Positions 6,643-45,392 of a stretch of DNA of 53,706 bases are shown here, piece by piece. The notes below the pieces were generated by a model, which did no database searches, was not told where the DNA came from, and saw only the letters and a list, made by a program, of their open reading frames with translations. Both the position numbers and the translations under genes were made by a program. Numbering within the stretch: position 1 is the first letter of the stretch; every line of letters begins with the position of its first letter. Source of the DNA: Lachnospiraceae bacterium (lineage in GTDB: Bacteria; Bacillota; Clostridia; Lachnospirales; Lachnospiraceae); contig JAFQIE010000009.1 in assembly GCA_017397645.1 (NCBI GenBank), forward strand, positions 1 through 53,706, written 5' to 3'.

Positions 6643-7615
6643 TATTCTTAATGGTTAAAAGATACTCTTCCTCTACTGGTGAAAGATTTTGAATCTGATA
6701 TTTCTGATATTCTTCATTCGCTTTTGTCATTGCCTGTGCATGACTAACACTGCCGGCTCCTTCTAATAACTTATCCCCAGTCGCTTTGAGAACATTATCT
6801 AAATGCTCAACATAATCACTCATATACATAGGATTATGACGCATAGCCTGAATTTCAGCAAAATCAAAATACCCGGAAACAATATTGTTCAAAATTTTCA
6901 ATTCTTTTTCATCTAAATAATTTTTTGCAATACCAATATCTTTTTTTGTTGGAAAATCTCCAGAAAATGTTCTTAATCCCATAAACGGTTGTTCTGCATT
7001 AGCGCGCTCATAGATTACTTCTGCCGCTGTATGACCATGTGCTGCAAAATGCAATTTATTTTGAACAATCTTAAAAAATGCAATAGATTCTGAACTCTTC
7101 GGATTATAATCTACACTTGTCGCATACAAATCTAAAACCTGACGATACATCACTTTTTCAGAAGAACGTATGTCTCTGATTCTATCCAACAACTCTTTCC
7201 AGTAACTTCCGCCACCAAGTTGTTTTAATCGTTCATCATCCATTGTGAAACCTTTTATCATATACTCTTTCAGACGTTCTGTTGCCCAGCGTCTGAAATT
7301 TGTAGCAATGATAGACTTTATTCTGTATCCGAGAGAAATAATCATGTCTAAATTATAATGAACCACATTATAGTTTTTTCCGTCTGTTCCAGTTGTTCGG
7401 AATTTCCGAACAACTGAATCTTCTTCCAATTCTCCCTCCTCAAAAATATGCTTAATATGTTCACTGACATTCGACTTACTTGTCTGATACAGTTCACATA
7501 ATTGCGCCTGTGTCAGCCAGACTGTTTCAGCTGCTATCTTCACATCAATCTTAGTTATTCCGTTTTCTGATTGATAAATCAAAATTTCACTATTATTGCA
7601 ATCTTTCAAGTGCAT
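6614..7615 (-). CDS. RhuM-family protein (virulence_RhuM)
   Basis: 333 aa, full length for the RhuM family first noted in a Salmonella pathogenicity island. The N-terminal half has the conserved pattern TVWLTQAQLCELYQTSKSNV (a DNA-binding-like helical motif), then VVRKFRTTGTDGKNYNVVHYNLDMIISLGYR, FRRWATERLKEYMIKGF and DDERLKQ. The C-terminal part resembles Fic/Doc-associated segments (HAAHGHTAAEV, FSGDFPTKKDI). The molecular function of the family is not established; many members sit on mobile or defence DNA. Its ATG overlaps the last codons of rlmD by 10 bases, so it has been placed in the rlmD transcript. Confidence 0.85.
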   Translation of the reverse strand: MHLKDCNNSEILIYQSENGITKIDVKIAAETVWLTQAQLCELYQTSKSNVSEHIKHIFEEGELEEDSVVRKFRTTGTDGKNYNVVHYNLDMIISLGYRIKSIIATNFRRWATERLKEYMIKGFTMDDERLKQLGGGSYWKELLDRIRDIRSSEKVMYRQVLDLYATSVDYNPKSSESIAFFKIVQNKLHFAAHGHTAAEVIYERANAEQPFMGLRTFSGDFPTKKDIGIAKNYLDEKELKILNNIVSGYFDFAEIQAMRHNPMYMSDYVEHLDNVLKATGDKLLEGAGSVSHAQAMTKANEEYQKYQIQNLSPVEEEYLLTIKNIEKQAKSCQ

Positions 7616-9159
7616 TCTCTCCCTTCTTTAGACTTCCATCGTCCTTGCCCTGTGCTACACATTTTCCCTTTCTTTTTTCCGTAGAAATCCTCCCTATCAA
7701 TACTCAAATTCACATGAATGTTTGGTTCTAGGTTGCTTATACGGCCCAAGAAACAGACCGTCTCCACATGCACGGTTTGTCCGAATTGGTCCACACCTCT
7801 CACCTTTTGCAGTTCATAGCCACCATCACAGAGAATCTTCAAATCTCTGGCAAGGGTAGCGGAATCGCAGCTCACATAGACAATTTTCTCCGGTGCCATC
7901 TGTAGCATGGTCTGCAGACAGGCATCATCACAGCCTTTACGGGGTGGGTCTACCACAATCACATCAGGATGGCGCATATCTGAATCACTATCTGCATAAA
8001 ACGCGGGCAACACTTCTTCCGCCTTACCCACAAAAAACTCTGCATTATCAATACCATTGCGCAGGGCATTTTCCTTGGCATCAGCAATTGCCGCAGGGAC
8101 AATCTCTACTCCACACACCTTCTTTGCATCCCCTGCCAGAAATAAGGATATGGTACCGATACCGCAATACAAATCCCATACTGTTTCCTGTCCGGATAGA
8201 CCGGCATATTCCAGTGCCAGGCTATACAATTTTTCTGTCTGTTCGGGATTGACCTGATAAAAAGACAGGGGCGAAATATGAAACTGCAATGATCTTCCCG
8301 TCCGAGGGAATCCCTCTTTGGACGTATCTCTCACATGAATGCTGTCCGTGATGGTATCTTTTCCCCAAAGAGTACGCACTTTTTTTCCCATGATCACATT
8401 GGTTTTTTCTTTATTCACGTTAAGGGATATACTAGACAGACCGGCAATGCTTCTCAACCCCTCCACCAGTTTGTCCTCCGCCGGCAATTTATCTCCGTTA
8501 ACCACCAGGCATACCATCAGTTCTCCGCTGGTAAAACCTTTTCGTATCAAGACATGTCTCACCAATCCCTGATGGGTGGTTTCGTCGTATGCCGTTACGT
8601 GATTTCCTTTCATATAGTCCAAAACCGCAAGTAACACCGGCTCATTTTCGTCCACACCCAAGTGGCACTTCGTATTTGCGATGATGCTGTGGGTTCTACC
8701 GGCATAAAACCCGGCAATAGGGTTGCCTTCTTTGTCCGTGCCCACAGGATACAAAGCCTTATTCCTATAATAAAAAGGCTCCTCCATCCCTACGATTGTG
8801 TCCATTTTGGCATCTATTTCGGCAGCATCAAAGCCACCGATGCGAATTAAGTTATTGCGGATCTTATTCTGCTTAAATTCCAGTTGTTTTTGATAGTCAA
8901 GCGTTTGCAACTGACATCCGCCACATTGTCTGTGAAACGCACATTTCGGTTCCACGCGAAAAGGAGAAGGTGTGATCACCTTCTCTAATCTGGCATAAGC
9001 AAAGTTTTTCTGAGTTTTGACAATGCGGGCTTCTACCACGTCTCCGACCACTGCGTCTTTCACAAAAAGCGCAAATCCGTCCACCTTGCCAATGCCTTTG
9101 CCATCGTTGCCGATGTCTTCAATTGTCACTGTCACAATATCATTCTTTTTGAAAATCAT
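7606..9159 (-). CDS. rlmD: 23S rRNA (uracil-C5)-methyltransferase, RlmD/RlmCD (TrmA family)
   Basis: 517 aa. An N-terminal TRAM domain (about residues 5-60) is followed by the 4Fe-4S cysteines, visible as CAFHRQCGGC near residue 73 with a further Cys later. A SAM-dependent methyltransferase domain comes next: DLYCGIGTISLFLAG near 340, the DPPRKGC motif with the cluster's conserved Asp-Pro-Pro near 415, and the catalytic Cys in VYVSCDSATLARDL. It methylates C5 of specific uridines in 23S rRNA. The tail after VETVCFLGR is lineage-specific and rich in Lys/Gly. It overlaps yhaM by ATGA at the 5' end and RhuM by 10 bases at the 3' end. Paralogues of this family are common, so the exact target is uncertain. 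Confidence 0.88.
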   Translation of the reverse strand: MIFKKNDIVTVTIEDIGNDGKGIGKVDGFALFVKDAVVGDVVEARIVKTQKNFAYARLEKVITPSPFRVEPKCAFHRQCGGCQLQTLDYQKQLEFKQNKIRNNLIRIGGFDAAEIDAKMDTIVGMEEPFYYRNKALYPVGTDKEGNPIAGFYAGRTHSIIANTKCHLGVDENEPVLLAVLDYMKGNHVTAYDETTHQGLVRHVLIRKGFTSGELMVCLVVNGDKLPAEDKLVEGLRSIAGLSSISLNVNKEKTNVIMGKKVRTLWGKDTITDSIHVRDTSKEGFPRTGRSLQFHISPLSFYQVNPEQTEKLYSLALEYAGLSGQETVWDLYCGIGTISLFLAGDAKKVCGVEIVPAAIADAKENALRNGIDNAEFFVGKAEEVLPAFYADSDSDMRHPDVIVVDPPRKGCDDACLQTMLQMAPEKIVYVSCDSATLARDLKILCDGGYELQKVRGVDQFGQTVHVETVCFLGRISNLEPNIHVNLSIDREDFYGKKKGKMCSTGQGRWKSKEGRECT

Positions 9160-10100
9160 ATCTGTGTCGCTTTCACATTGGACTCCAACAATCTGTTATA
9201 CCCAAGCCAGCCCTTGTCCTCACTGTTGTTGTCCAGGATTTCCTTAAAGGTCTCTATTTTTGCATCCGTGTCATCCGCGTAGTTCAGCGCCAATGCCTCG
9301 ATAATGGCAGGCACCTTAGGAGAACCATACTCGTATTTTCCATGGTGTGCCAAAATACAGTGCTGCAATTGGGTCAAAATATGAGCAGGAAATCCGTCAA
9401 TCTGCGCAGCCTTCTGGGCCACCATTTGGGCACCCATCACAATGTGCCCTAAGAACTGGCCTTCATCCGTGTAATCATTCTCCGGAAATGCAGAAATCTC
9501 TTTTGTTTTACCGATATCATGACAAATAGCTGCTGACAAGAGCAAGTCCCTATTCAACACAGGGTATGCCTTGCAATAAAAATCACATAATTTGGTCACA
9601 CTCAAGGTATGCTCCAGCAAACCGCCCACGAATCCATGATGCACAAATTTCGCTGCAGAAGAATTGCGGAATGCTTTGACAAATGCCTCATCCTTCACAA
9701 AAAACAGCTGTAACAATTGTTTCAGATAGGTGTTCTGTATACTTTGAATCAATCCCGTGAGTTCACCGTACATTTCGTCAATATTCTTGGAACTTACAGG
9801 CAGGTAATCTGAGGGAATATACTCGCCCTCGCGGCATCGACGGATTCTCTTCACGCTGACTTGTAGCGCCCCCTGAAAGCTGGTCACATCGCCGTATACT
9901 TCTATGTAATCCAGGGTATCAAAATCCTCAATACCGGGATTGTTGGGCTCCCAAATCTTTGCATCTATGGCTCCCGTCTTATCCTGTAGAATAAGATTTT
10001 CATATGCCTTTCCGTTTTTGGTAACGGCCGACTGTCTGTGCTTACACAGGTAAATATCAAACAGTCTGTCGCCCTCTCTTAAATCCTTGATGTATTTCAT
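9156..10100 (-). CDS. yhaM: 3'-5' exoribonuclease YhaM family (OB fold + HD domain)
   Basis: 314 aa when started at ATG 10100, which has AGAGGAC about 9 bases upstream; a longer ORF to 10145 overlaps the htrA-like gene and lacks a site. N-terminal residues about 5-100 are an OB-fold nucleic-acid-binding domain (KNGKAYENLILQDKTGAIDAKIW). The C-terminal half is an HD phosphohydrolase domain: HHGFVGGLLEHTLSV, then AAICHDIGKT with the HD pair, GHIVMGAQMV and a later HHGKYEYGSP. YhaM degrades RNA and single-stranded DNA from the 3' end. It is placed between htrA-like (17-bp gap) and rlmD (4-bp overlap), one transcription unit. Confidence 0.9.
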   Translation of the reverse strand: MKYIKDLREGDRLFDIYLCKHRQSAVTKNGKAYENLILQDKTGAIDAKIWEPNNPGIEDFDTLDYIEVYGDVTSFQGALQVSVKRIRRCREGEYIPSDYLPVSSKNIDEMYGELTGLIQSIQNTYLKQLLQLFFVKDEAFVKAFRNSSAAKFVHHGFVGGLLEHTLSVTKLCDFYCKAYPVLNRDLLLSAAICHDIGKTKEISAFPENDYTDEGQFLGHIVMGAQMVAQKAAQIDGFPAHILTQLQHCILAHHGKYEYGSPKVPAIIEALALNYADDTDAKIETFKEILDNNSEDKGWLGYNRLLESNVKATQI

Positions 10101-10116
10101 AAACTTTCTGTCCTCT

Positions 10117-11415
10117 CTATTTTGCTTCTCCCAACACAATTTCAAAGGTTTTTATCTTGTATTCCCCTTGGGACTGTCTTCGAACTGCCATTTCAATCTC
10201 CATCTCCGGAGACAAATTCATCAAAGCCTCATTGAAATCTTCCACATCACGCACCGCCTTGGCGTTGATTCTGACAATCACATCTCCCTGATTCACACCT
10301 GCCCTCATGGCCGGCGAATCCATGGCGATATCCGTCACATATACACCTTCAGGTAGCCCAAGACTTTTCTGACTTTCCCTGGGAACATCCACGCAACCAA
10401 TACCCATGTAGGGAATCCTTTTGCCATTGGACATTTTCTCGATCACACCCTTAACCTCTGTAATTCCGATGGCGGTTATCATATTTTCCATGTGTGGAAT
10501 CTTATGCTGATTGGTAATGAGGCCTACGACCTTGCCTTCCAGGTCAAACAGCACTCCGCTGCCCTCCGGACTACCCTGTATGTCCGTGAGCAGTAGTTTA
10601 TAGTTTCTATCAATTAATTTCAGTGGCGTCCCATCATTTGTAATATAGCCATATCCCACTGACACCCCGGTGCCCATGGGGTTGCCGATGGCCACCACCG
10701 GCATTCCTACCAGATCATCTCTCTTGGAACTGCCAAAGCTGACAATCGATAATTCTTCCCTACTCTGCTCTGGAAGCGCAGACAGACTCACGGCGAGAAT
10801 GGCGATATTGGTTGCAGTATCATACTGCCGGAGCACTGCCTCCATCTCCAAATAGTTGTGGAAGGTTACCATGATCTTCTGGGCATCTTTGATTTGCTCA
10901 TAATCCGCCAAAATCAAAAGTTCCACACCATTTTCTGTAATCACCATGCCACTGCTTTGGTTCTGATAGGTTTGAATATCCTGAAACAAATTAACATTGT
11001 AGGTAACCGAAGTCACCGTCACCATGCTTCTATTCACGATGCCTACATATTTTGCAAGAGATTTGGACATATCATCATAGTCAGTCCAATCTAAACGCAT
11101 TTGCACTCCATCTGCCTGATATTCCGTTATCACGTCAGATGACGGCTCCTGCATATTCTCTGCCAGCATATCCTCCGGTTCCATCTCCTCCTCATCCTCC
11201 GGGAATGTAACCACCGGAGGTGGCGCTTCCGGATACAACCAATTACTGATTACCGGCTCCAAAACCAGGAATGTGAAACATGCAATCAAGCCAAAAAGAA
11301 GTGCCATCGACGCAGTGATAAGCGTCCGCCGTAAAAGTTTTCTCTTGTTCACCGGCTTTACCTTGATGGTCTCCTTCACATATTCAGTTGGCTCCTTATG
11401 TTCTAAATCAGCCAT
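10117..11415 (-). CDS. HtrA/DegP-like membrane-anchored S1C protease homologue with PDZ domain, probably catalytically inactive
   Basis: 432 aa from ATG 11415 (AGGAGG upstream). A cytoplasmic N-terminus of about 35 residues is followed by one transmembrane segment (SMALLFGLIACFTFLVLEPV), an acidic linker, a trypsin-like domain (about 110-320) and a C-terminal PDZ domain (about 330-425; YMGIGCVDVPRE, GVYVTDIAMDSPAMRAGVNQGD). Active HtrA enzymes carry TNNHV, D-x-AVL and GNSGGPL. Here the His region reads LLILADYEQI with no His, the Asp region YDTATNIAIL keeps its Asp, and the Ser loop reads GSPEGSGVLF, with a Ser but a broken oxyanion loop. It is therefore likely a pseudoprotease or scaffold acting outside the membrane. 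First gene of the htrA-yhaM-rlmD unit. Confidence 0.85.
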   Translation of the reverse strand: MADLEHKEPTEYVKETIKVKPVNKRKLLRRTLITASMALLFGLIACFTFLVLEPVISNWLYPEAPPPVVTFPEDEEEMEPEDMLAENMQEPSSDVITEYQADGVQMRLDWTDYDDMSKSLAKYVGIVNRSMVTVTSVTYNVNLFQDIQTYQNQSSGMVITENGVELLILADYEQIKDAQKIMVTFHNYLEMEAVLRQYDTATNIAILAVSLSALPEQSREELSIVSFGSSKRDDLVGMPVVAIGNPMGTGVSVGYGYITNDGTPLKLIDRNYKLLLTDIQGSPEGSGVLFDLEGKVVGLITNQHKIPHMENMITAIGITEVKGVIEKMSNGKRIPYMGIGCVDVPRESQKSLGLPEGVYVTDIAMDSPAMRAGVNQGDVIVRINAKAVRDVEDFNEALMNLSPEMEIEMAVRRQSQGEYKIKTFEIVLGEAK

Positions 11416-11545
11416 CACTACCATTCCTCCTACTACCATTATTCATAGTCGTGACGAAAAAGTCAATAAAATAGTGAAGCCTCTCGCGTTTTTTCCCAAT
11501 TCATGATATACTCTAAAAAAGCTGTTTTTAATTTAGGAGTTCTAC

Positions 11546-13927
11546 ATGAATCTAAAAGTACTGAAAACATTAGAATACAATAAAATCATAGATATGTTGG
11601 TGGAAAAAGCGGATTCCAATCCGGGACGGGAAGTGTGCAGACAGCTTGTGCCCATGACCGATTTAAATGCTATCAATGAGCATCAGGTACAAACGGCAGA
11701 TGCCCTGCAACGATTGTTCCAATCCGGCAGTACCTCTTTCGGCAATAACAGAGACTTGGGTTTTGCCATCCGCGCCTTGGAAATCGGAAGCACCTTATCC
11801 TGCGTGGAACTATTGCACATCGCAGGAATGCTGGACAATGTTGCCAGAGTAAAGGCCTACGGTAAAAAAGAGCGGGAGGACGCACCCACCGACAGTTTGG
11901 ATAGTTTCTTTGAGGAATTGACTCCTCTGACGCAGGTGGCAAACGAAATTCGCCGTTGCATTCTATCAGAAGAAGAAATTGCCGACGATGCCAGCCCTAC
12001 CCTCAGAAAAATCCGCACATCCATGGTGCAGACTGGGGATAAGATTCACAGCCAGTTGACCTCTCTGCTGAATGGTTCCTACCGAAATTACCTGCAGGAT
12101 GCGGTCATTACCATGCGTAACAACCGCTATTGCATTCCCGTGAAGGCAGAATATAAGAGCCAGGTCAATGGCTTGGTTCATGACCAATCCTCCACCGGGT
12201 CCACTTATTTTGTGGAACCGGCAGTTGTGGTAGAACTGAACAATAAACTGAGAGAATTAGAGATTCAAGAAAAAGATGAAATTCAGGAAATCCTGGCAAC
12301 ATTAAGTGCCATGACGGGCGTTCATACGGAAGAATTATTACGCAATCAAGAGATTATGACTACGCTGGATTTCGTTTTTGCCAAAGCCAAATTGGCGTTG
12401 GATATGAACGCAACCAGACCTCTGTTCAATCAGGACCGTTATATCGAGATACGCAAGGGGCGTCATCCCTTGTTGGATAAGAAAAAAGTAGTTCCCATTG
12501 ACTTGCATTTGGGTAAAGCTTTCGATTTATTGATTGTCACCGGTCCCAACACCGGCGGTAAGACAGTATCCCTGAAGACGGTGGGATTATTTACCTTGAT
12601 GGGACAGGCAGGACTCCATATCCCTGCATTAGACCGTTCGGAACTTGCTCTCTTTACAGAAGTATTTGCAGACATAGGTGACGAGCAAAGCATCGAGCAA
12701 AGTTTGTCCACTTTCTCTTCCCATATGAAGAGCATTGTCCACATATTGAAACATGCTGACGAAAACTCCCTATGTTTGTTTGACGAACTGGGCGCCGGCA
12801 CAGACCCCACAGAGGGCGCGGCACTGGCTATTGCGATTCTAAACTTTTTGCACGATCGTGGTATCCGCACCATGGCTACGACCCATTACAGCGAGTTAAA
12901 AGTCTACGCACTTTCCACCGATTTCGTGGAAAATGCCTGTTGTGAATTCAGCGTGGAGACACTGCAACCTACCTACCGTCTCTTAATCGGCATTCCCGGC
13001 AAAAGTAACGCTTTTGCCATCTCATCCAAGTTGGGGCTTTCCGATGAAATCATAGACGCAGCCAAAGAACAAATCAGCAAAGAAGAGCAGTCCTTCGAGG
13101 ATGTAATTGCAGATTTGGAAAACAGCCGTCTCACCATAGAAAAAGAACAGCGGGAACTGGCGGAATACAAAGCACGCATCAAAGAATTACAGCAACAGTT
13201 GCAGGCAAAAAACGAAAAGATAGAGCAGTCCCAAGAGAGAATTTTGCGGGAAGCCAATGAAAAGGCAAAGGAAATTCTGAAAGAAGCCAAGGAGGTGGCG
13301 GATGAAACCATCCGCGATTTCAACCAACTTCATCCCGGCACAGACATCAAGGCTTTGGAAGAGAAACGAAGAAAAGTCGGCGAGAAAATTAAAGAAAAAA
13401 ACAGCTCGCTAACACCCAAAAACAAACCTTCAGGCAACACTCCTAAGAGTAACATCGATCCCAAAAAGTTAAAAAAGGGCGACAGCGTAAAAATCGTCTC
13501 CATGGGATTAAAGGGTACGGTCAGCACTCTGCCTGATGCCAAGGGAAATCTTTTTGTGCAGTGCGGTATTATACGTACCCAGACAAATATCAGAGATTTA
13601 GTGCTGGTAGAGGAAGCCACCATTTCCGCCCCCGGATTAAAATCCGGCGGTGCAGGCAAAATCAAGATGGGCAAGAGCCTGTCCGTCTCCACGGAGATTA
13701 ACCTGCTTGGCCAAACGGTGGACGAAGCCCTGGCTACCCTGGATAAATATTTAGATGATGCCTATTTGGCACACCTGCCCAGTGTACGTGTGGTACACGG
13801 AAAAGGCACCGGTGCCCTGCGCAGCGCGGTGCACAATCATCTCAAACGCCTTCGCTATGTAAAGGAATATCGCCTGGGCGAATACGGCGAAGGGGATGCC
13901 GGTGTTACCATTGTAACCTTTAAATAG
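11546..13927 (+). CDS. mutS2: Endonuclease MutS2
   Basis: 793 aa, the usual MutS2 length. MutS core and lever helices occupy about residues 1-300. The ABC-type ATPase follows: Walker A GPNTGGKT near 335, the EQSLSTFSSHM signature near 390, and Walker B LCLFDELGAGTDP near 415. A long coiled coil covers about 510-625 (IEKEQRELAEYKARIKELQQ). A KOW-like segment and a C-terminal Smr domain end the protein (VRVVHGKGTGALR near 750). The Smr LDLRG motif reads INLLG here, so the acidic nuclease residue of that motif is replaced; I believe this variant is common in the lineage. MutS2 acts in recombination suppression and in rescuing collided ribosomes. AGGAG lies before ATG 11546. Confidence 0.93.
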   Translation: MNLKVLKTLEYNKIIDMLVEKADSNPGREVCRQLVPMTDLNAINEHQVQTADALQRLFQSGSTSFGNNRDLGFAIRALEIGSTLSCVELLHIAGMLDNVARVKAYGKKEREDAPTDSLDSFFEELTPLTQVANEIRRCILSEEEIADDASPTLRKIRTSMVQTGDKIHSQLTSLLNGSYRNYLQDAVITMRNNRYCIPVKAEYKSQVNGLVHDQSSTGSTYFVEPAVVVELNNKLRELEIQEKDEIQEILATLSAMTGVHTEELLRNQEIMTTLDFVFAKAKLALDMNATRPLFNQDRYIEIRKGRHPLLDKKKVVPIDLHLGKAFDLLIVTGPNTGGKTVSLKTVGLFTLMGQAGLHIPALDRSELALFTEVFADIGDEQSIEQSLSTFSSHMKSIVHILKHADENSLCLFDELGAGTDPTEGAALAIAILNFLHDRGIRTMATTHYSELKVYALSTDFVENACCEFSVETLQPTYRLLIGIPGKSNAFAISSKLGLSDEIIDAAKEQISKEEQSFEDVIADLENSRLTIEKEQRELAEYKARIKELQQQLQAKNEKIEQSQERILREANEKAKEILKEAKEVADETIRDFNQLHPGTDIKALEEKRRKVGEKIKEKNSSLTPKNKPSGNTPKSNIDPKKLKKGDSVKIVSMGLKGTVSTLPDAKGNLFVQCGIIRTQTNIRDLVLVEEATISAPGLKSGGAGKIKMGKSLSVSTEINLLGQTVDEALATLDKYLDDAYLAHLPSVRVVHGKGTGALRSAVHNHLKRLRYVKEYRLGEYGEGDAGVTIVTFK

Positions 13928-13967
13928 TTTTGTACCCGTAAGCATGCTTGCTAAGGAGGCTTTTATG

Positions 13968-14669
13968 GCAATCAAACAAAGAGTACTGATTGTAGATGAC
14001 GACAATAATATAGCGGAACTGATTTCCCTCTACTTCACTAAGGAATGTTATGAAACCCAGATTCTGAACGAGGGTGAGTCCGTTCTTTCTACTGTGGAAA
14101 GTTTCGAACCCAATCTGATTTTACTGGATATCATGCTTCCGGGCATGGATGGATACCAGGTCTGCAGAGAAGTCCGGGCAAAATACAATACTCCCATTAT
14201 CATGCTATCTGCTAAGGGAGAGGTCTTTGATAAGGTTCTGGGATTGGAACTGGGTGCTGACGACTACATTGAAAAGCCTTTTGACTCTAAGGAATTGGTA
14301 GCACGGGCCAAGGCGGTGTTACGCCGCTATAAAACTGTTGCTCCAACGGATGAGAAAAAGAATGAAAAATGTGTGGAATATCCTGACCTGATTATCAACC
14401 TGACCAATTACTCTGTCACCTATATGGGCCAACGGATAGACATGCCTCCCAAGGAGCTGGAACTTCTGTATTTCCTGGCAGCCTCACCCAATCATGTGTT
14501 TACCAGAGAGCAGCTTTTGGACCAAATCTGGGGATATGAGTACATCGGCGACACCCGTACGGTGGATGTTCACATCAAGCGTCTCCGAGAAAAAATCAAA
14601 GACCATGAAAGCTGGGAAATTGCCACCATTTGGGGCATTGGCTATAAATTTGAGGTACATAATTCATGA
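13968..14669 (+). CDS. OmpR/PhoB-family response regulator
   Basis: 233 aa from ATG 13968 (AAGGAGG 7 bases upstream). Receiver domain residues 1-120 hold DDD at 11-13, phospho-acceptor D55 in LILLDIMLPGMDGYQ, a conserved Ser-Ala-Lys (MLSAKGE), and GADDYIEKPF. The C-terminal winged-helix domain (about 135-230) has the PPKELELLYFLA and TVDVHIKRLREKI features. It overlaps the sensor kinase by ATGA, so the pair is one operon. The signal and targets are not evident from context. Confidence 0.93.
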   Translation, partial: AIKQRVLIVDDDNNIAELISLYFTKECYETQILNEGESVLSTVESFEPNLILLDIMLPGMDGYQVCREVRAKYNTPIIMLSAKGEVFDKVLGLELGADDYIEKPFDSKELVARAKAVLRRYKTVAPTDEKKNEKCVEYPDLIINLTNYSVTYMGQRIDMPPKELELLYFLAASPNHVFTREQLLDQIWGYEYIGDTRTVDVHIKRLREKIKDHESWEIATIWGIGYKFEVHNS

Positions 14670-16093
14670 AAAAAACCATTTACCTGAAGTTTTTATTGGG
14701 GTATGTAATCTTCGGTATCTTCAGCTTTGTGATTGTATCCACTCTGATTCAGAATCTGACCTACGGACATCTGATGAAGGAACATGCTTCCCATCTGTAT
14801 GAAGAAGCCACGCTGATTGCGGAAAATTATGCCTCCGAACTTTACCAAAGTGAAACCGACCTTGAGACAGTCAAAAAACAATTAGATACCTTGGCCGGAT
14901 ACTTGAACTGTAGCATTCGTATCATCAATCCTTCCGGCAGAATCGTATTGGATACCGCTCTGCCACTGGATGTAGAAAGTATCCGCCAGATTGAGGGCTT
15001 TGACCCCACAGCTTTCGGTGATTCCTATTACACCGTCAATTCCTTCTTTCATAGCTTTGATGATGAGAGACTGAATGTATTGGTGCCCATTACATCCCAG
15101 TTCAAAACCCACGGCTACGTAGCCTTACACAGCCCCACAGAAAGCATTCAGCAAGCCTGCGACAGCATGATGCACATTGCTTTTCTAATGTTGGGCATCC
15201 TGCTATTGCTCTCCCTAATTATTTTGATTTTCTTCACGGAATTAGTGTATGTTCCCCTGAAAAAAATCACCCGCGCGGCAGAAAACTATGCAGAAGGCAA
15301 CATGCGCTATGAATTCCAGGTGGAAAGTGAAGACGAAATGGGCTATCTTGCCGCATGTATGCGTTACATGGCAGGACAGATTGCCGGATTTGAGGACGAT
15401 CAGAAAAAGATGGTGGCCAATATTTCCCACGATTTCCGTTCACCCCTGACTTCTATCAGAGGATATTTGGAAGCCATGCAGGACGGCATCATTCCCCCTG
15501 AGATGCACGAGAAATATTTGGGGATTGTGCTAAACGAAACCGAGCGTCTGACCAAACTTACCAACAGTCTGTTGACTTTGAACAACCTCAACACCAAAGG
15601 CATGTTACTGGATAGAACGGATTTTGACATTAACACGGTGATAAGAAACACGGCATCCTCCTTCGAAGGAAGATGCCGTGAAAAAAACATCCATATTGAA
15701 CTGGTTCTCACCGGGGAAGAACTGCTCGTAAATGCAGACACCGAAAAAATACAGCGTGTTCTATATAACCTGATAGACAATGCCATTAAATTCAGTCACC
15801 AAGACTCTTCCATCAAGATAGAGACCTACATCAAGAAGAATCGCCTTTTTGTCTCGGTGAAGGATGCGGGTATTGGTATCCCCAAAGACGATGTGAAGAT
15901 GATTTGGAATAGATTCTACAAATCCGATGTTTCCAGAGGAAAGGACAAAAAAGGTACCGGATTGGGTCTTTCCATTGTAAAAGAAATCATTAATTCCCAT
16001 CAGGAAAACATCAATGTCATCAGCACCGAAGGCGTAGGGACCGAATTCATCTTTACCCTTCCCATGACGGACGTGATGGAAGATGAAGACTAA
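14666..16093 (+). CDS. Membrane sensor histidine kinase
   Basis: 475 aa. TM1 is at about residues 8-28, followed by an extracytoplasmic sensor of about 140 residues and TM2 at about 172-195 (a Leu/Ile run). A HAMP domain follows to about 245. The HisKA phospho-His is in ISHDFRSPLTSIRGY near residue 253. The HATPase domain shows the N box (LYNLIDNAIKFSH), G1 (DAGIGIPKDD), F box and G2 (GTGLGLSIVKEI). It autophosphorylates and transfers phosphate to the adjacent OmpR regulator. Its TAA stop overlaps the convergent ECF gene's TAG by 4 bp (CTAA). Confidence 0.93.
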   Translation: MKKTIYLKFLLGYVIFGIFSFVIVSTLIQNLTYGHLMKEHASHLYEEATLIAENYASELYQSETDLETVKKQLDTLAGYLNCSIRIINPSGRIVLDTALPLDVESIRQIEGFDPTAFGDSYYTVNSFFHSFDDERLNVLVPITSQFKTHGYVALHSPTESIQQACDSMMHIAFLMLGILLLLSLIILIFFTELVYVPLKKITRAAENYAEGNMRYEFQVESEDEMGYLAACMRYMAGQIAGFEDDQKKMVANISHDFRSPLTSIRGYLEAMQDGIIPPEMHEKYLGIVLNETERLTKLTNSLLTLNNLNTKGMLLDRTDFDINTVIRNTASSFEGRCREKNIHIELVLTGEELLVNADTEKIQRVLYNLIDNAIKFSHQDSSIKIETYIKKNRLFVSVKDAGIGIPKDDVKMIWNRFYKSDVSRGKDKKGTGLGLSIVKEIINSHQENINVISTEGVGTEFIFTLPMTDVMEDED

Positions 16094-32618: not shown

Positions 32619-32700
32619 ACACCGTGGGAAGGCGTGGGTAGTGCCTGAATCCAAATATTCCATCGACGGGATTAAGAATGGTATATCCATTCTTTTTTTT
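32619..32700 (+). ncRNA. Structured small RNA in front of the Abi gene (abiF-type RNA candidate)
   Basis: About 80 nt between an extended -10 promoter and the Abi gene's ribosome site, closed by its own terminator. Pairings visible: CCGT (32622-32625) with ACGG (32666-32669); GGAA (32627-32630) with TTCC (32658-32661); AGGC (32630-32633) with GCCT (32643-32646); AATCC (32648-32652) with GGATT (32669-32673). The last crosses the second, giving a pseudoknot. The terminator is AAGAATGG (32674-32681) / CCATTCTT (32687-32694) plus TTTTTT. A structured RNA preceding abiF-type genes is a described RNA motif class; I place this one there from context and topology, not from a model search. It could be a decoy or antitoxin-like partner of the Abi protein, or a leader. 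Confidence 0.72.
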
Positions 32701-32716
32701 ATTTCGCGGAGGATTT

Positions 32717-33670
32717 ATGATCTTAAACAACATCGCCTCTCCAATTGACTTAGATATGCAATTGAAGAAAATGAAATTCTATGTAACCTTCACCAAAAGA
32801 AGGCGTATGATTTCTTTTTTAAGACACGCTGGGTATTTTCGGTGCAGTCGCTACGGGAAGTTTTTGCTTTCACACGCAAATGTTTTAGGCATCAAACCAA
32901 CACAAGATATGCTGTTTTATCTTTATGAATTTGACACCCGATTACGCGAACTCTTATTTCACTATTGTCAATTGGCAGAAATACAATTTAAAACCTATCT
33001 ATCTGATGCGCTTTCGATAAAACTGAATGATGCCTCTTTCTACTTAAAACAGCAATATTTTACTCCCACTCGATCCGAGCGAGACAAAGTTAAAAAGCAA
33101 TCTAATCTGCGTTTCTTTCTATCATTCGTTGGTAATCTATCTAACTATTCACATAGTCTAATTATGAATTCTCATAAGTATCCGGAGTTAAAAGAATACC
33201 GAAAAGGCGGAACCAAAGCCACAAACTTTCTTCCTTGCTGGGTGTTTTTTTCTTATATTGAGTTAGGCACGATTGTTAATATATATGCTTATTTAAGAGG
33301 CGACCTCCGATCATATGTTTTAAAATATGGTTATTCTAAAACCCATTATCTCAAAAGTACCACCAAACAATTTGACACTTGGCTTGAGGCATTGAGAAAT
33401 TTGCGAAACACTTGCGCTCACCATAATCTTTTAGTGGGTAAAACGTCTTCTATCGTCCTTCCAGAAACATCTGATTCTCATAAATTATCTTCTAACTCTG
33501 ATCTTTTTTCCAGACTATATGCGCTAAAAAAGATACTGCCTGTAGCAGAGCACAACAAACTAAAACATGATTTAAAGAAACTAATCAAACACTGTAAAAT
33601 TGACATCTTTAAACTTAATATCCTTCCAAAAGACTGGGAGTCACGCTATGATGATATACATATTTTATAA
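32717..33670 (+). CDS. Abi_2 (AbiD/AbiF) abortive-infection protein
   Basis: 317 aa from ATG 32717 (GGAGG 4 bases upstream). The N-terminus KKMKFYVTFTKRRRMISFLRHAGYFRCSRYGKFLL fits the Abi_2 pattern, in which a helical start is followed by a Gly-Tyr-Phe/Tyr-Arg segment. LYEFDTRLRELLFHYCQLAEI near residue 70 is the central conserved helix pair. RNTCAHH (residues 230-236) gives the R-x4-H signature of HEPN ribonucleases. Family members stop phage growth, probably by RNA cleavage. Directly upstream is the structured, self-terminated RNA. Likely a two-part RNA-protein defence or toxin-antitoxin-like unit; this is inference. Confidence 0.88.
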   Translation: MILNNIASPIDLDMQLKKMKFYVTFTKRRRMISFLRHAGYFRCSRYGKFLLSHANVLGIKPTQDMLFYLYEFDTRLRELLFHYCQLAEIQFKTYLSDALSIKLNDASFYLKQQYFTPTRSERDKVKKQSNLRFFLSFVGNLSNYSHSLIMNSHKYPELKEYRKGGTKATNFLPCWVFFSYIELGTIVNIYAYLRGDLRSYVLKYGYSKTHYLKSTTKQFDTWLEALRNLRNTCAHHNLLVGKTSSIVLPETSDSHKLSSNSDLFSRLYALKKILPVAEHNKLKHDLKKLIKHCKIDIFKLNILPKDWESRYDDIHIL

Positions 33671-39805: not shown

Positions 39806-40309
39806 TTATGAATCAGAACGTAATTTCATTTTTTCACACCACAACTGAAGAGCCTCGACTGTAGCGGCAACATATTCTAATTCTTCATATATTTTATCAA
39901 AATCATCCCTCTCATCCTCTGAAATCGTTTCGTCACTAAGAATCTCCATCAACCTTATTTTATTATGATTAACATTTCTTAAAGTGACCGCCATATTCAC
40001 TAGAATCTCATGTATACCTTTAGAATATGTAACTTGAGGAACATCCTTTTCCCCTATTTCGCATTGATGACAACAGTAATAGTTTCTCAACTCTGGCATA
40101 TTATATGCTTTTGATAAAGCAACAATATCCTCTGGATGAATTCTAATTGACTCTTCTTCTATTTTAACTAATTTATATTTATCAAGATAGTTGTACTTGC
40201 CTTGGTCAATTTTTAAAATCTCATCAGCGGCTTTTTCTCGACTCCACCCCAAGCTATCTCGCGCTTCCTGATAAACACTTTTATTCTCTTTTGTCGACTT
40301 TCTACCCAT
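39806..40309 (-). CDS. XRE-like HTH protein with YCCHQC motif (paralogue A)
   Basis: 167 aa. The N-terminal HTH (residues 1-55) starts with GRKSTKENKSVYQEARDSLG. The conserved HPEDIVALSKAYNMPELRNYYCCHQCEIGEKDVP segment near 60-90 carries a Cys-Cys-x-x-Cys/His cluster. The C-terminal half is a helical bundle. It is paralogous to the protein at 44880-45392 on the opposite strand (GRQSTRENKTMYQ...YFCSHKCDIGKKYVP). The two flank the WYL/PolC-like genes. Likely DNA-binding regulators; the Cys/His motif may bind zinc. Confidence 0.78.
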   Translation of the reverse strand: MGRKSTKENKSVYQEARDSLGWSREKAADEILKIDQGKYNYLDKYKLVKIEEESIRIHPEDIVALSKAYNMPELRNYYCCHQCEIGEKDVPQVTYSKGIHEILVNMAVTLRNVNHNKIRLMEILSDETISEDERDDFDKIYEELEYVAATVEALQLWCEKMKLRSDS

Positions 40310-41380: not shown

Positions 41381-42349
41381 TCACCAATATTTCTTATACG
41401 CTTCCATAACCGCCTTTTGAATATCATCCCGAAAATGTCTCGGCCCGATTACCTCGCATTTATCGCAATGTGCCAATATCCATTCCCTCATGACAGATGG
41501 AATACATTTAATCTTTACGCTAATTCTGTCCTTTTGAGTTCGTATTACCGTCAGGCTATTACCGAACTTTTCCGCAAGTTCGTTCCACAGGTCCTTCTCA
41601 CACTCAATATCATATCTTTCTATGTACTCTCCGTTCTGCAGAATAAAACGCTCTGCATACTGAGTGGGATTGATGCCTCCAAATACCATATCAACCCCTC
41701 GCTCCAAAATTGAGATGTCCTTCAGATGGTCAATCCTATAGTGTGTCAGATCATCCGTATTTTCCTGTTTTGCAAGTAAGTAGTAATTTCCGGAAGCCCA
41801 CATTGTCGCGTATGGGCTGATAACAATGGCTCCTCCTTCCGCTTCCTCCAGTTCCATCTCCAGATTGTATTCCAGTAAACTTACAGATATTTTACAGCCC
41901 TGATTTATAGCTATATTTAGTGTGTCGATGTTATAAAACAATTGCTTATTGAGTACTTTCTCACGATTTTTGACATACACAGTCTTTTGTAACATTCTGC
42001 CTTGGAATACACTTTGCGTATTTATCAGTTTAGCAATAACCTCTTTGCTGGTCTCTTCTTTTATGATATCCGAAGCCGCCACCGCATCACACAACAATCT
42101 AATCTCTGAAGGCTCGAACTGCCTATCTATAAGATAATATCCCTCTCGATTATCCTGATAGCCTTCGATGTCTATACCCATGCCGCGTAAAGCTTCTATA
42201 TTTCTATATATTGCTCTCCGTTCCATATCAACATCATATATCGCTTTTAACTTTTCTTTTACGGTTTCAGCCGAAAGGATATGGTTTTCGTCCGAGTACT
42301 TTTTTAGAATTTCATATACACATAATATGGTAGCCTTCTGACTTATCAT
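41381..42349 (-). CDS. WYL-domain transcriptional regulator
   Basis: 322 aa from ATG 42349 (GGAGGAGAACA upstream). An N-terminal winged helix covers residues 1-80 (TILCVYEILKKYSDENHILS, VDMERRAIYRNIEAL). A WYL domain follows at about 140-215, where the eponymous W-Y-L reads NYYLLAK. The C-terminal WCX extension ends with FRDDIQKAVMEAYKKYW. WYL regulators of this kind often control phage-defence operons. It diverges from the PolC-like gene with 157 bp between starts, containing a long inverted repeat (42408-42440) that is a likely operator. Confidence 0.88.
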   Translation of the reverse strand: MISQKATILCVYEILKKYSDENHILSAETVKEKLKAIYDVDMERRAIYRNIEALRGMGIDIEGYQDNREGYYLIDRQFEPSEIRLLCDAVAASDIIKEETSKEVIAKLINTQSVFQGRMLQKTVYVKNREKVLNKQLFYNIDTLNIAINQGCKISVSLLEYNLEMELEEAEGGAIVISPYATMWASGNYYLLAKQENTDDLTHYRIDHLKDISILERGVDMVFGGINPTQYAERFILQNGEYIERYDIECEKDLWNELAEKFGNSLTVIRTQKDRISVKIKCIPSVMREWILAHCDKCEVIGPRHFRDDIQKAVMEAYKKYW

Positions 42350-42407
42350 TGTTCTCCTCCAAGTGTGTGTTGTGTTAACATTATAGTTGCTCCTACAAAA
42401 ATTATCA

Positions 42408-42440
42408 ACCGCTCGTTGTACCATCTTTGGTACAGCGGTT
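42408..42440. promoter_or_regulatory. Long inverted repeat between the WYL and PolC-like genes (operator candidate)
   Basis: Inner arms TGTACCA (42417-42423) and TGGTACA (42428-42434) around a TCTT centre. Outer arms AACCGCT (42408-42414) and AGCGGTT (42434-42440) are separated on one side by a 2-3 base bulge. It is 28 bp upstream of the PolC-like gene's extended -10. The whole can also form a hairpin in RNA, but position favours a repressor site. Confidence 0.68.
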
Positions 42441-42444
42441 GGCG

Positions 42445-42473
42445 TATGTTTTGTAATATCACTTTGCTATAAT
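42445..42473 (+). promoter_or_regulatory. Promoter of the PolC-like gene
   Basis: Extended -10 TGCTATAAT (42465-42473), with a weak -35 (TATGTT at 42445-42450, 17-bp spacing). It lies downstream of the inverted repeat and 34 bp before the start codon. Confidence 0.65.
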
Positions 42474-42506
42474 ACACGTATCAAATTCTACAGGAGGGCT
42501 ATTATA

Positions 42507-43841
42507 ATGAAAATACCAAATATTGAAAATGCTTTTGTTAATATCAAAAAAGCGTGCGATAAAAAACTCACAGAGCTATATCCAATGGGGATTCCGGCTG
42601 ATATAAGTGCACGTTACGAACAGGAACTTATTTTCCTAAAGAATTCTGAACATATTAATGACTTTGAAATTTTTCGTAAGCTATCAGAAGAGGCCTTAAA
42701 ATGCTCCACCATAATTAGTATGCGTGGAACCGTTATGGGATCGTTTATTTACTATTTGCTTGGCAACAACTGCTTCAATCCACTTCCAGTGCATTACTAC
42801 TGTCCAAAATGTGGACATTATGAAGTGGTTTCTACTCGCTTGTTCGGTATCGACCTACCCGAAAAAAAGTGCCCCAACTGCAGGAATTCTATTTTGGCAG
42901 ATGGTTTTAATTTGCCTTTTGAAAGCGTATGGGGTAGCAATGGTAAAAAGTTACCAGCCTTTGAGTATAATGTTAGTCCCGAATTCCTACCATTTGCCGG
43001 CAGAGTTTTATCATCCCTATACCCTCAAAACAGTATTGCACCCTGGGGAATGTTTCAAATGGACCCTTTTACCGCCACATCATATCCAGATAACCGGGCA
43101 ATAGGTGTAAGTTTGTCCGGGTATGCCATTCTTCCGACTGGAACAACGATTCAAGATTATCCCGATTTAATATCCTACCTCGAAAATGGTGAGCCTTGCT
43201 TGACTGGTGGCAGTTGGGAATTAAAAGATAATAACATTAGGCCAATACGTTTGTTTTCATCTGATCATATCGAAAGTCTCTTGAATCTCCAACGTGCTAC
43301 AGGCATTTACGCAAATGAAATCACACTAAAAGAATTGCGTAACATTACATGGAGCAACATAGCGAATTCTGCAGTACTAATCGAAAATACAAGTAATTTG
43401 TTTCGTCACATAAAACCCAAAACTTATCGTGACATGATTTGTGCCGAATCCGCTTCGCACAGTACATTTTCATGGCAGAATACTGATCAAACAGATTTGT
43501 ATGAATACGACAAAATGATATCATCAGATTCGTTCAAAAAATATCCATGTTTCGCGAGAGAAGATTTTTTTGATTTCCTTCTCGAAACAGGAATCGAGAG
43601 AGCACTTGCATTTGATGTATCAGAACAAATCCGAAAAGGGCATGCAAATTCCCCGAAATTCAGAGATAAATTTAATACGTTATTAATTCCCGAAGGCATC
43701 AAAGATGTAGCGCAATGTTATTCCTATGTATTCCCACGCGCTCACTGTGTAGAATATGTGCTACTCTACGCCCGTATCGCATATTATGCGCAAGTGGATA
43801 GCAAAGCATTTAGTAAAATTATGTATAGAAGGAAAGCTTGA
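42507..43841 (+). CDS. PolC-derived protein without polymerase catalytic residues
   Basis: 444 aa from ATG 42507 (GGAGG upstream). It follows the order of the polymerase part of Gram-positive PolC. MRGTVMGSF (72-80) corresponds to SRGSVGSSF. FNPLPVHYYCPKC (90-102) corresponds to NPLPPHYVCPEC, with a zinc cluster C99, C102, C122, C125 and GIDLPEKKCPNC. NLPFESVWG (135-143) corresponds to DIPFETFLG. The C-terminal 96 residues correspond to the PolC end (FAREDFFDFLLETGIERAL, then FPRAHCVEYVLLYARIAYY at 409-427). In PolC the two metal-binding Asp lie in PDIDLNF; here the same place reads PAFEYNV (150-156), so both Asp are lost. A large part of the palm/fingers is deleted. A domesticated DNA-binding or decoy protein is likely. 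Confidence 0.8.
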   Translation: MKIPNIENAFVNIKKACDKKLTELYPMGIPADISARYEQELIFLKNSEHINDFEIFRKLSEEALKCSTIISMRGTVMGSFIYYLLGNNCFNPLPVHYYCPKCGHYEVVSTRLFGIDLPEKKCPNCRNSILADGFNLPFESVWGSNGKKLPAFEYNVSPEFLPFAGRVLSSLYPQNSIAPWGMFQMDPFTATSYPDNRAIGVSLSGYAILPTGTTIQDYPDLISYLENGEPCLTGGSWELKDNNIRPIRLFSSDHIESLLNLQRATGIYANEITLKELRNITWSNIANSAVLIENTSNLFRHIKPKTYRDMICAESASHSTFSWQNTDQTDLYEYDKMISSDSFKKYPCFAREDFFDFLLETGIERALAFDVSEQIRKGHANSPKFRDKFNTLLIPEGIKDVAQCYSYVFPRAHCVEYVLLYARIAYYAQVDSKAFSKIMYRRKA

Positions 43842-44879: not shown

Positions 44880-45392
44880 ATGGGAAGACAGTCCACAAGA
44901 GAAAACAAGACCATGTACCAGTTATGTAGAGAAGAGTGCGATCTCACCAGGGAAGAAGCCAGCGAACAGATGGATGGCGTTTCGTATTCTCGCATCGAAA
45001 AGATTGAGTATGAAATGCAAGAGCCCACACCCTATGATGTGGTTCAAATGGCTGACTGTTACAACAGACCTGATTTGTGCAATTACTTTTGTTCCCATAA
45101 GTGTGATATTGGAAAGAAATATGTTCCCGAAGTGGAAGTCAGCGAATTGTCCAGTATTATCATAGAAACCATCGCAAGCCTGAATGAAATCGAGCCCCTG
45201 ACAGACCGACTCATTCAAATCGCCCGCGACGGTAAAATCTCCGACGCTGAAATGCCAGATTTCGCTTTTATTAGCAAGAAACTAGATGAAATTTCTCTGG
45301 CTGTGGATTCCTTAAATCTTTGGATTGATAAAACTGCGGGAGAAAACAACCTCAATTTAGAGCTTTTTAGGACAGAGAAGAATAAATTGTAA
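44880..45392 (+). CDS. XRE-like HTH protein with YFCSHKC motif (paralogue B)
   Basis: 170 aa. N-terminal HTH residues 1-50 (GRQSTRENKTMYQLCREECD, then GVSYSRIEKIEYEM), then PTPYDVVQMADCYNRPDLCNYFCSHKCDIGKKYVPE with the Cys/His cluster, and a helical C-terminal half. Clear paralogue of the protein at 39806-40309 (same start, same Cys/His block, similar length). It has its own promoter and terminator. Probable regulator; ligand and target unknown. Confidence 0.8.
   Translation: MGRQSTRENKTMYQLCREECDLTREEASEQMDGVSYSRIEKIEYEMQEPTPYDVVQMADCYNRPDLCNYFCSHKCDIGKKYVPEVEVSELSSIIIETIASLNEIEPLTDRLIQIARDGKISDAEMPDFAFISKKLDEISLAVDSLNLWIDKTAGENNLNLELFRTEKNKL

Follow-up and report, generated by a model that had tools for sequence, protein, structure and literature searches.

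A WYL regulator gene head to head with the gene for a predicted catalytically dead PolC core in a Lachnospiraceae contig

WYL-domain transcription factors govern several small modules, reportedly including CapW-CBASS. As far as the relevant passages describe them, SiwR with its dinB-like genes, the DriD regulon, and BrxR-BREX each place a dedicated WYL factor beside its target, together with a palindromic operator (PMC10693628, PMC12340889, PMC9122601). Dead polymerases kept as accessory proteins are also already known, though in the Y family, where ImuB and other inactivated polymerases are retained and, according to part of one survey, work in mutasomes (PMC12926913). Here we describe a 53,706-nucleotide stretch of contig JAFQIE010000009.1 from a Lachnospiraceae bacterium (assembly GCA_017397645.1; the whole stretch is hereafter the window), in which a gene for a 444-amino acid PolC-like protein, P0001, stands head to head with a gene for a WYL-domain regulator. 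The small two-gene unit resembles the WYL modules above in its dedicated regulator and palindromic operator, but differs from them in that its target appears to be a dead replicative polymerase core, in that the second ligand arginine of the WYL protein is replaced, and in that its operator lies upstream of the −35 element, where those of the known modules overlap it. It recalls ImuB as a dead polymerase homologue retained as an accessory protein, but the polymerase family is another, and no mutasome partner was noticed beside the window gene when lists of open reading frames (ORFs) were read by eye, no profile search having been made. That these genes form a two-gene module is well supported, and we infer the biochemical role of the module from sequence. 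The original prediction knew of no described system built on such a protein, and we likewise found no description of a WYL-paired dead PolC core in the open-access literature. One survey of C-family polymerases discarded fragments without an intact active site, as stated in part of its text (PMC3919608), and passages of another mention inactive Y-family polymerases and inactive proofreading domains, PHP or other (PMC12926913); going by those passages, proteins like this one could therefore be missed by such surveys.

The derivation of the protein from PolC is clear. It matched the NCBIfam PolC model NF001688 at 148 bits (E = 2e-43), below the curated whole-protein cut-off of 873 bits, with the match split into two stretches; a comparison with the PolC profile gave coverage of positions 823–993 and 1165–1310 of 1445. 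PDB structure 3f2b was matched at 2.1e-38 over residues 3–178 and 298–428, and 9qpc at 9.5e-30; the NCBIfam and 3f2b values rule out a chance similarity to PolC. Only C-family polymerase models matched in Pfam and NCBIfam scans, with no Y-family homology. All of the landmarks quoted in the original prediction are present and in PolC order (RGTVMGS, NPLPVHY, CPKC...CPNC, LPFE, PAFEYNV, and FPRAHCVEYVLLYARIAYY). The last of these, the FP-AH motif, had been taken for a clear PolC C-terminal end; it instead belongs to the fingers region, and the host PolC, 1514 residues long, has it at residue 1334. Compared with PolC, the replicative DNA polymerase III alpha of Gram-positive bacteria (NF001688, TIGR01405; 1435–1514 amino acids), the window protein is a free-standing piece, as had been proposed, in which profile coverage includes no PHP, exonuclease, or C-terminal parts. 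We read it as part of the palm/thumb including the zinc cluster, followed by a middle that is shortened and by the fingers with most pocket residues, a predicted fold based on sequence homology. A retained β-clamp motif had also been suggested as worth checking for, and reading the sequence by eye we saw no pentapeptide like QLSLF, the motif that the consulted passages use as the reference for PolC.

The catalytic aspartates of the predicted active site have been lost. Aligned to PolC, the window protein reads AFE (A151 to E153) at the first two catalytic aspartate positions, which are D972 and D974 of Enterococcus faecium PolC in the relevant part of PMC12592400. Loss of both had been noted before, and the third position is lost too, reading R. 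Among eight aligned family members (described below), the first DxD aspartate is gone in all and the third in seven, while as a control all three are present in each of 15 housekeeping PolCs (13 loci, that of the own genome, and L042). Three of the zinc-cluster cysteines are kept in 8/8 members and the fourth in 7/8. By contrast with the catalytic aspartates, pocket residues are mostly kept. H318, Y407, F409, H413, and Y417 of the window protein correspond, by arithmetic conversion of numbering, to the E. faecium pocket residues H1185, Y1274, F1276, H1280, and Y1284 given in passages of PMC12592400; Y1274 and F1276 are retained in 8/8 members and H1185 and H1280 in 7/8. The face of the site turned towards the nascent base pair is thus better preserved than the catalytic one. 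The features of the gene are as follows.

42507..43841, plus strand: predicted dead PolC-core (pseudo-polymerase) gene, 444 amino acids (P0001), from the ORF starting at ATG 42507, the PolC matches, and the aspartate alignment
42801..42881, plus strand: four-cysteine zinc cluster C99, C102, C122, C125, from sequence reading and the family alignment
42957..42965, plus strand: positions of the first two catalytic aspartates of PolC, here A151-F-E153, from alignment to PolC
43458..43757, plus strand: fingers segment with retained PolC pocket residues H318, Y407, F409, H413, Y417, from alignment

The gene is not a frameshifted or decayed copy of the host polC, an origin that the original prediction had raised. 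The own genome (G000; 1.81 Mb in 46 contigs, 74% complete) carries a separate intact PolC at G000:C34 with an open frame of 1525 amino acids, and the window protein belongs to a lineage distinct from housekeeping PolC. In the phylogenetic tree, the eight aligned family members form a single clade (local support 0.998), and the accessory PolC-like proteins as a set, this family included, split from the housekeeping PolCs used (support 0.977). Six short remnant loci (G339, G275, G335, G103:C15, G280, and G004:C11) were left out of the alignment and tree. Identity between the P0001 gene and its G126 relative, whose proteins are 59% identical, is 0.67, 0.82, and 0.44 at codon positions one, two, and three, and the same order (second, first, third) holds against L039, L040, G169, and G112. 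This pattern is as expected under protein-level selection.

We then examined the distribution of the family across 397 genomes of Lachnospiraceae. Clear members, intact or broken, were present in seven (G000, G126, G317, G169, G232, G112, and G021), short remnants of the same kind occurred in at least two more (G339 and G280), and a scan of genome contigs added L039 (57%), L040 (50%), and L041 (28%, titled Oscillospiraceae). Seven copies are intact, the six others being 28–59% identical to P0001. A WYL gene, whole or broken, is the head-to-head neighbour of the PolC-like gene in 8 of the 10 loci, which bears out the divergent regulator first described for the window alone. The two remaining loci are G126, where the contig stops 152 base pairs (bp) past the ORF and neither WYL gene nor operator was seen, and G317, where the N-terminal 54 residues are lost and no WYL gene lies on that side. 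Both genes of the pair are damaged in G021 and in G232, a one-contig genome. With the WYL protein as query against these 397 genomes, the best matches after itself were G169 and G232 (64% each) and G112 and G021 (53% each), followed by a drop to 33%. Of the thirty WYL loci returned, each of the five closest (that of the own genome among them) has a PolC-like gene beside it. Within 1.5 kilobases (kb) of the other 25 there is none, although among these the WYL gene of L104 was itself missed by the ORF caller.

The family is patchy. It is found in one of eight genomes in the genus of G232 and is absent from all ten further members of the own genus that the order sample lists, and samples of the order (392 genomes), class (391), and phylum (388) yielded no further close member. 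In these overlapping samples, a profile of the middle region (A2) matched 10/392 and 14/391 genomes at 0.001 and 2/388 at 0.0001. Beyond the own genome, these matches were, judged by open-frame length, ordinary PolCs, a PolC cut by a contig end (G574, dropped), an apparently broken short frame in G765, a distant dead protein (G261), and an accessory PolC-like protein (G818). Also dropped was L042, the fourth hit of the scan of genome contigs, a 24% match that is an ordinary PolC of 1435 amino acids. As to a phage origin, none of the 58 pattern matches from a pattern-seeded scan of viral contigs with the A1 profile was confirmed as a relative. Protein searches returned 17 plasmid records, 11 of them labelled PolC or Pol III alpha, and 22 phage records, of which 20 were listed, without annotation; all in both sets were below 60% identity. 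Two hits labelled hypothetical were opened and set aside as larger ORFs. As a separate observation, L071:3768-6512 and L072:7464-10022 are large ORFs labelled hypothetical, with partial PolC similarity, from a Cetobacterium and a Lactococcus plasmid.

Next, we considered the WYL partner and the spacer shared by the two genes. The product of 41381–42349 matched the PADLOC WYL model at 4.1e-16; its Pfam WYL score was under the cut-off (18.4 vs 21.8 bits), and phmmer against PDB returned nothing at 0.01. The extended −10 attributed to the PolC-like gene was recovered at 42465–42473. The long inverted repeat, proposed as an operator, also exists, at 42406–42441, but only its inner palindrome (42417–42436) is conserved. 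The elements of the pair's control region are listed here.

41381..42349, minus strand: WYL-domain transcription regulator gene, 322 amino acids, head to head with the PolC-like gene (PADLOC WYL model)
42380..42385, minus strand: −10 TATAAT of the WYL gene (promoter scan of the spacer)
42403..42408, minus strand: −35 TTGATA of the WYL gene, 17-bp spacer (promoter scan of the spacer)
42406..42441, no strand: inverted repeat CAACCGCT...AGCGGTTG around the operator, its outer arms not conserved in relatives
42417..42436, no strand: candidate palindromic operator core TGTACC-N6-GGTACA-GC, TGTACCATCTTTGGTACAGC, conserved, between the two promoters
42465..42473, plus strand: extended −10 TGCTATAAT of the PolC-like gene, best −35 with only 2/6 matches
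42492..42498, plus strand: ribosome-binding site AGGAGGG of the PolC-like gene (sequence reading)

The pattern TGYRC-N7/8-GTAYAGC was found in all seven spacers examined (that of G021 excluded) and in 0/2000 shuffles of each spacer, the pattern itself having been derived from these spacers. From the first base of the operator to the extended −10 of the PolC-like gene, the distance is 48 bp in all six spacers other than L041; to the −10 of the WYL gene it is 37 bp in six of the seven and 38 bp in one (L041 having two candidate boxes, of which one was used). In six spacers, the PolC-like promoters combine a TGN extended −10 with a −35 matching at 1–3 of 6 positions, and the WYL promoters have a better −35 (3–5 of 6). 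The operator centre would fall at about −53 to −55 for both promoters if transcription starts some 7 bp past the −10. An exact copy of the operator occurs once in the own genome, at the shared site, so the WYL protein looks like a local, dedicated regulator. Allowing up to three mismatches raises the number to 22 sites, compared with 11 for a reversed control. One of them, C18:57314, has a single mismatch and was taken as chance, lying inside a coding sequence that resembles a peptidyl-prolyl isomerase. Passages of PMC12340889 describe DriD as a WYL activator that acts on promoters with a poor −35, at a fixed distance to the −10 and in one case bidirectionally, from sites that overlap the −35. 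For the pair described here, we favour activation of the PolC-like promoter as the probable sign of regulation.

We tentatively propose, at somewhat less than even confidence, that the module is a WYL-controlled pseudo-polymerase that binds primer-template or single-stranded DNA (ssDNA) non-productively as part of a defence or genotoxic-stress response. In this accessory module of a WYL transcription factor and a divergent, catalytically dead PolC core, the WYL protein would bind the shared palindromic operator and, upon a nucleic-acid or replication-stress signal, would switch on the PolC-like promoter with its extended −10 and no good −35. The product, which seems to retain the fingers pocket and part of the core that holds primer-template while lacking the metal-binding aspartates and the clamp, PHP, and exonuclease parts, could then hold primer-template or ssDNA without chemistry, so that replication of phage or host would be blocked or marked. 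The proposal is sequence-based, drawing on homology, aspartate loss, protein-level constraint, gene co-occurrence, and an operator shared at a fixed distance from both −10 boxes. Also in its favour are the retained pocket residues, the poor −35 of the PolC-like promoters, which recalls those activated by DriD, and, as described below, the separate pairing of a WYL gene with a dead PolC-like gene in G039 and the position of the L041 copy next to DISARM genes. If the core is indeed selected, regulated, and dead, bacteria would have repurposed a piece of the replisome for sensing or obstructing replication.

Several observations weigh against this proposal. The operator of L041 lies 25 or 70 bp from the extended −10, a deviation from the distance seen in the other spacers, and a position upstream of the −35 could fit other modes of control. 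Passages on PafBC and SiwR describe ssDNA bound through two WYL arginines three residues apart (PMC10693628, PMC11804915), which by our own reading equate to RxDR. Of six aligned WYL proteins of the pair, five keep R at the first position and one has K there; the second arginine is replaced in all six (H, H, K, L, Y, and K). Because this second arginine is replaced, ssDNA sensing by the pair WYLs is not to be assumed, and sensing through the known WYL site appears doubtful. On the polymerase side, Y1284 of the pocket is retained in only 3/8 family members, and the core is not basic, with a net charge of −1 to −11 across the family; housekeeping cores, at −9 to −25, are more negative. No PADLOC family matched P0001 at E values up to 0.1. 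Most other loci have no catalogued defence system by eye, the neighbours of L041, G169, G232, and G317 having been profiled in part.

The main alternative, which we hold to be possible but rather unlikely, is that the dead PolC core is a sensor and not the effector: bound to nucleic acid or nucleotides, it would modulate the WYL protein, with an output that may include unseen genes. Two proteins that favour it come from a wider set of 15 accessory PolC-like loci, fourteen from Lachnospiraceae plus G818 from the same class, whose proteins have the same PolC core and for which we found no name in the open-access literature. They span 312–1057 amino acids and vary in PHP and helix-turn-helix (HTH) domains, catalytic state, and neighbours; the catalytic aspartates are kept in six (G818, G080, G004, G213, and two in G357) and lost in nine. 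A WYL gene lies within about 10 kb in 6/15 (G818, G330, G080, G039, G357b, and G380), a count to be read with several shorter flanks and with the background rate for an arbitrary gene not measured. In G039 (L155:8569-10842), the WYL gene is 15 bp ahead of a dead 312-amino acid PolC-like gene on the same strand. In G212 and G042, PolC-like proteins of 491 amino acids each (L161:7594-9069 and L162:8666-10141), with the catalytic aspartates gone, carry an N-terminal HTH_3 domain (Pfam, 5e-16 and 5.9e-16). Such a fusion puts a polymerase-derived domain in an apparent transcription regulator, so a PolC-like core can probably be part of one. That PolC-like cores recur with WYL and HTH suggests that the core is used in regulation or sensing, and the WYL proteins would fit this too, with both ligand arginines kept as R in 3/3 WYLs of accessory PolC-like loci and the second replaced in all of those of the pair. 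Against a sensor with further outputs, however, the sole exact operator in the 74% complete own genome is the shared one, the relaxed sites number 22 against 11 in the control with the single one-mismatch site in isomerase-like coding sequence, and the HTH_3 fusions group with the pair family at a low support of 0.273.

The window protein appears to be one member of a broader phenomenon. Taking the head-to-head pair, the G039 WYL operon, and the G212 and G042 HTH fusions as regulatory settings, it is conceivable, if on balance doubtful, that they represent a class of WYL-gated pseudo-replicases, in which dead C-family cores were recruited into regulation more than once and, in bacterial conflict, serve as decoys at primer-template junctions or as sensors there. 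Such a class would be a kind of immune or stress protein built from the replisome itself.

Returning to the pair, an accessory role in repair or translesion synthesis, akin to ImuB but in the C family and recruiting an active polymerase under DNA damage, is improbable. Mutasomes that use inactive Y-family polymerases, as described in part of PMC12926913, offer a precedent, as do the damage-induced genes that PafBC, DriD, and SiwR control according to passages of PMC10693628, PMC11804915, and PMC12340889, but no mutasome-type gene was noticed alongside in ORF lists read by eye without a profile search, no clamp motif was seen in the sequence, and the family is patchy, occurring in 7/397 genomes. 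We give little weight to another nucleotidyltransferase-type or nucleotide-binding activity, kept or gained. Seven of eight members have a [GS]S motif, and seven of eight are acidic at the second DxD position, yet the first DxD aspartate is gone from all eight and the third from seven, and L041 has no GS motif. Least probable of all, a non-functional relic slowly decaying alongside its regulator would account for the three of ten loci that are broken or truncated (G232, G021, and G317) and for the short remnants that at least two further genomes carry (G339 and G280), but is opposed by the evidence of selection, with seven intact copies, a codon-position bias, and conserved operator spacing.

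Finally, we looked at the genes around the family. The original prediction placed the gene in a defence-like region, and the window contains an AbiD-like abortive-infection gene (32678–33670; PADLOC, 7.9e-39) about 9 kb from the PolC-like gene, as well as genes for a NERD-domain protein and a protein kinase. The L041 copy adjoins DISARM drmB (8.9e-78) and drmA (4.9e-212) and a gene for a macro-domain UvrD-like helicase (region 7586–15451), all of them on the strand opposite that of the PolC-like gene. The broken G232 copy has one gene with a Schlafen AlbA_2 domain and another with a macro domain adjacent to it. Other neighbourhoods, read mostly by eye, are varied, and a defence role of the pair is plausible. 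No replication operon was seen around family members in ORF lists read by eye, a setting the original prediction had raised together with retained catalytic aspartates, which are gone in the family. Flanking the window region are phrog_6499-type regulator genes (39806–40309 and 44880–45392), and a gene that looks similar by eye lies at L044:3509-4027.

Among other PolC-like loci, the dead PolC-like gene at L073:9013-10227 (404 amino acids) has as neighbours a gene with weak similarity to tubulin/FtsZ (Pfam 3e-7, under the curated cut-off) and ORFs that by eye resemble TIR domains. L075:1972-3552, a dead PolC-like gene of 526 amino acids, adjoins a recN-like gene in what by eye is apparently a recN-argR-dxs-xse operon. 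Short PolC-like proteins of 756–1049 amino acids with an N-terminal PHP domain, called by Pfam for L158 and L074 and by eye for L159 and L078, are encoded at L158:8002-10482, L159:6887-10036, L074:9225-11495, and L078:5376-7889, in regions where metallophosphatase-, macro-, or AAA-like genes were recognized by eye.
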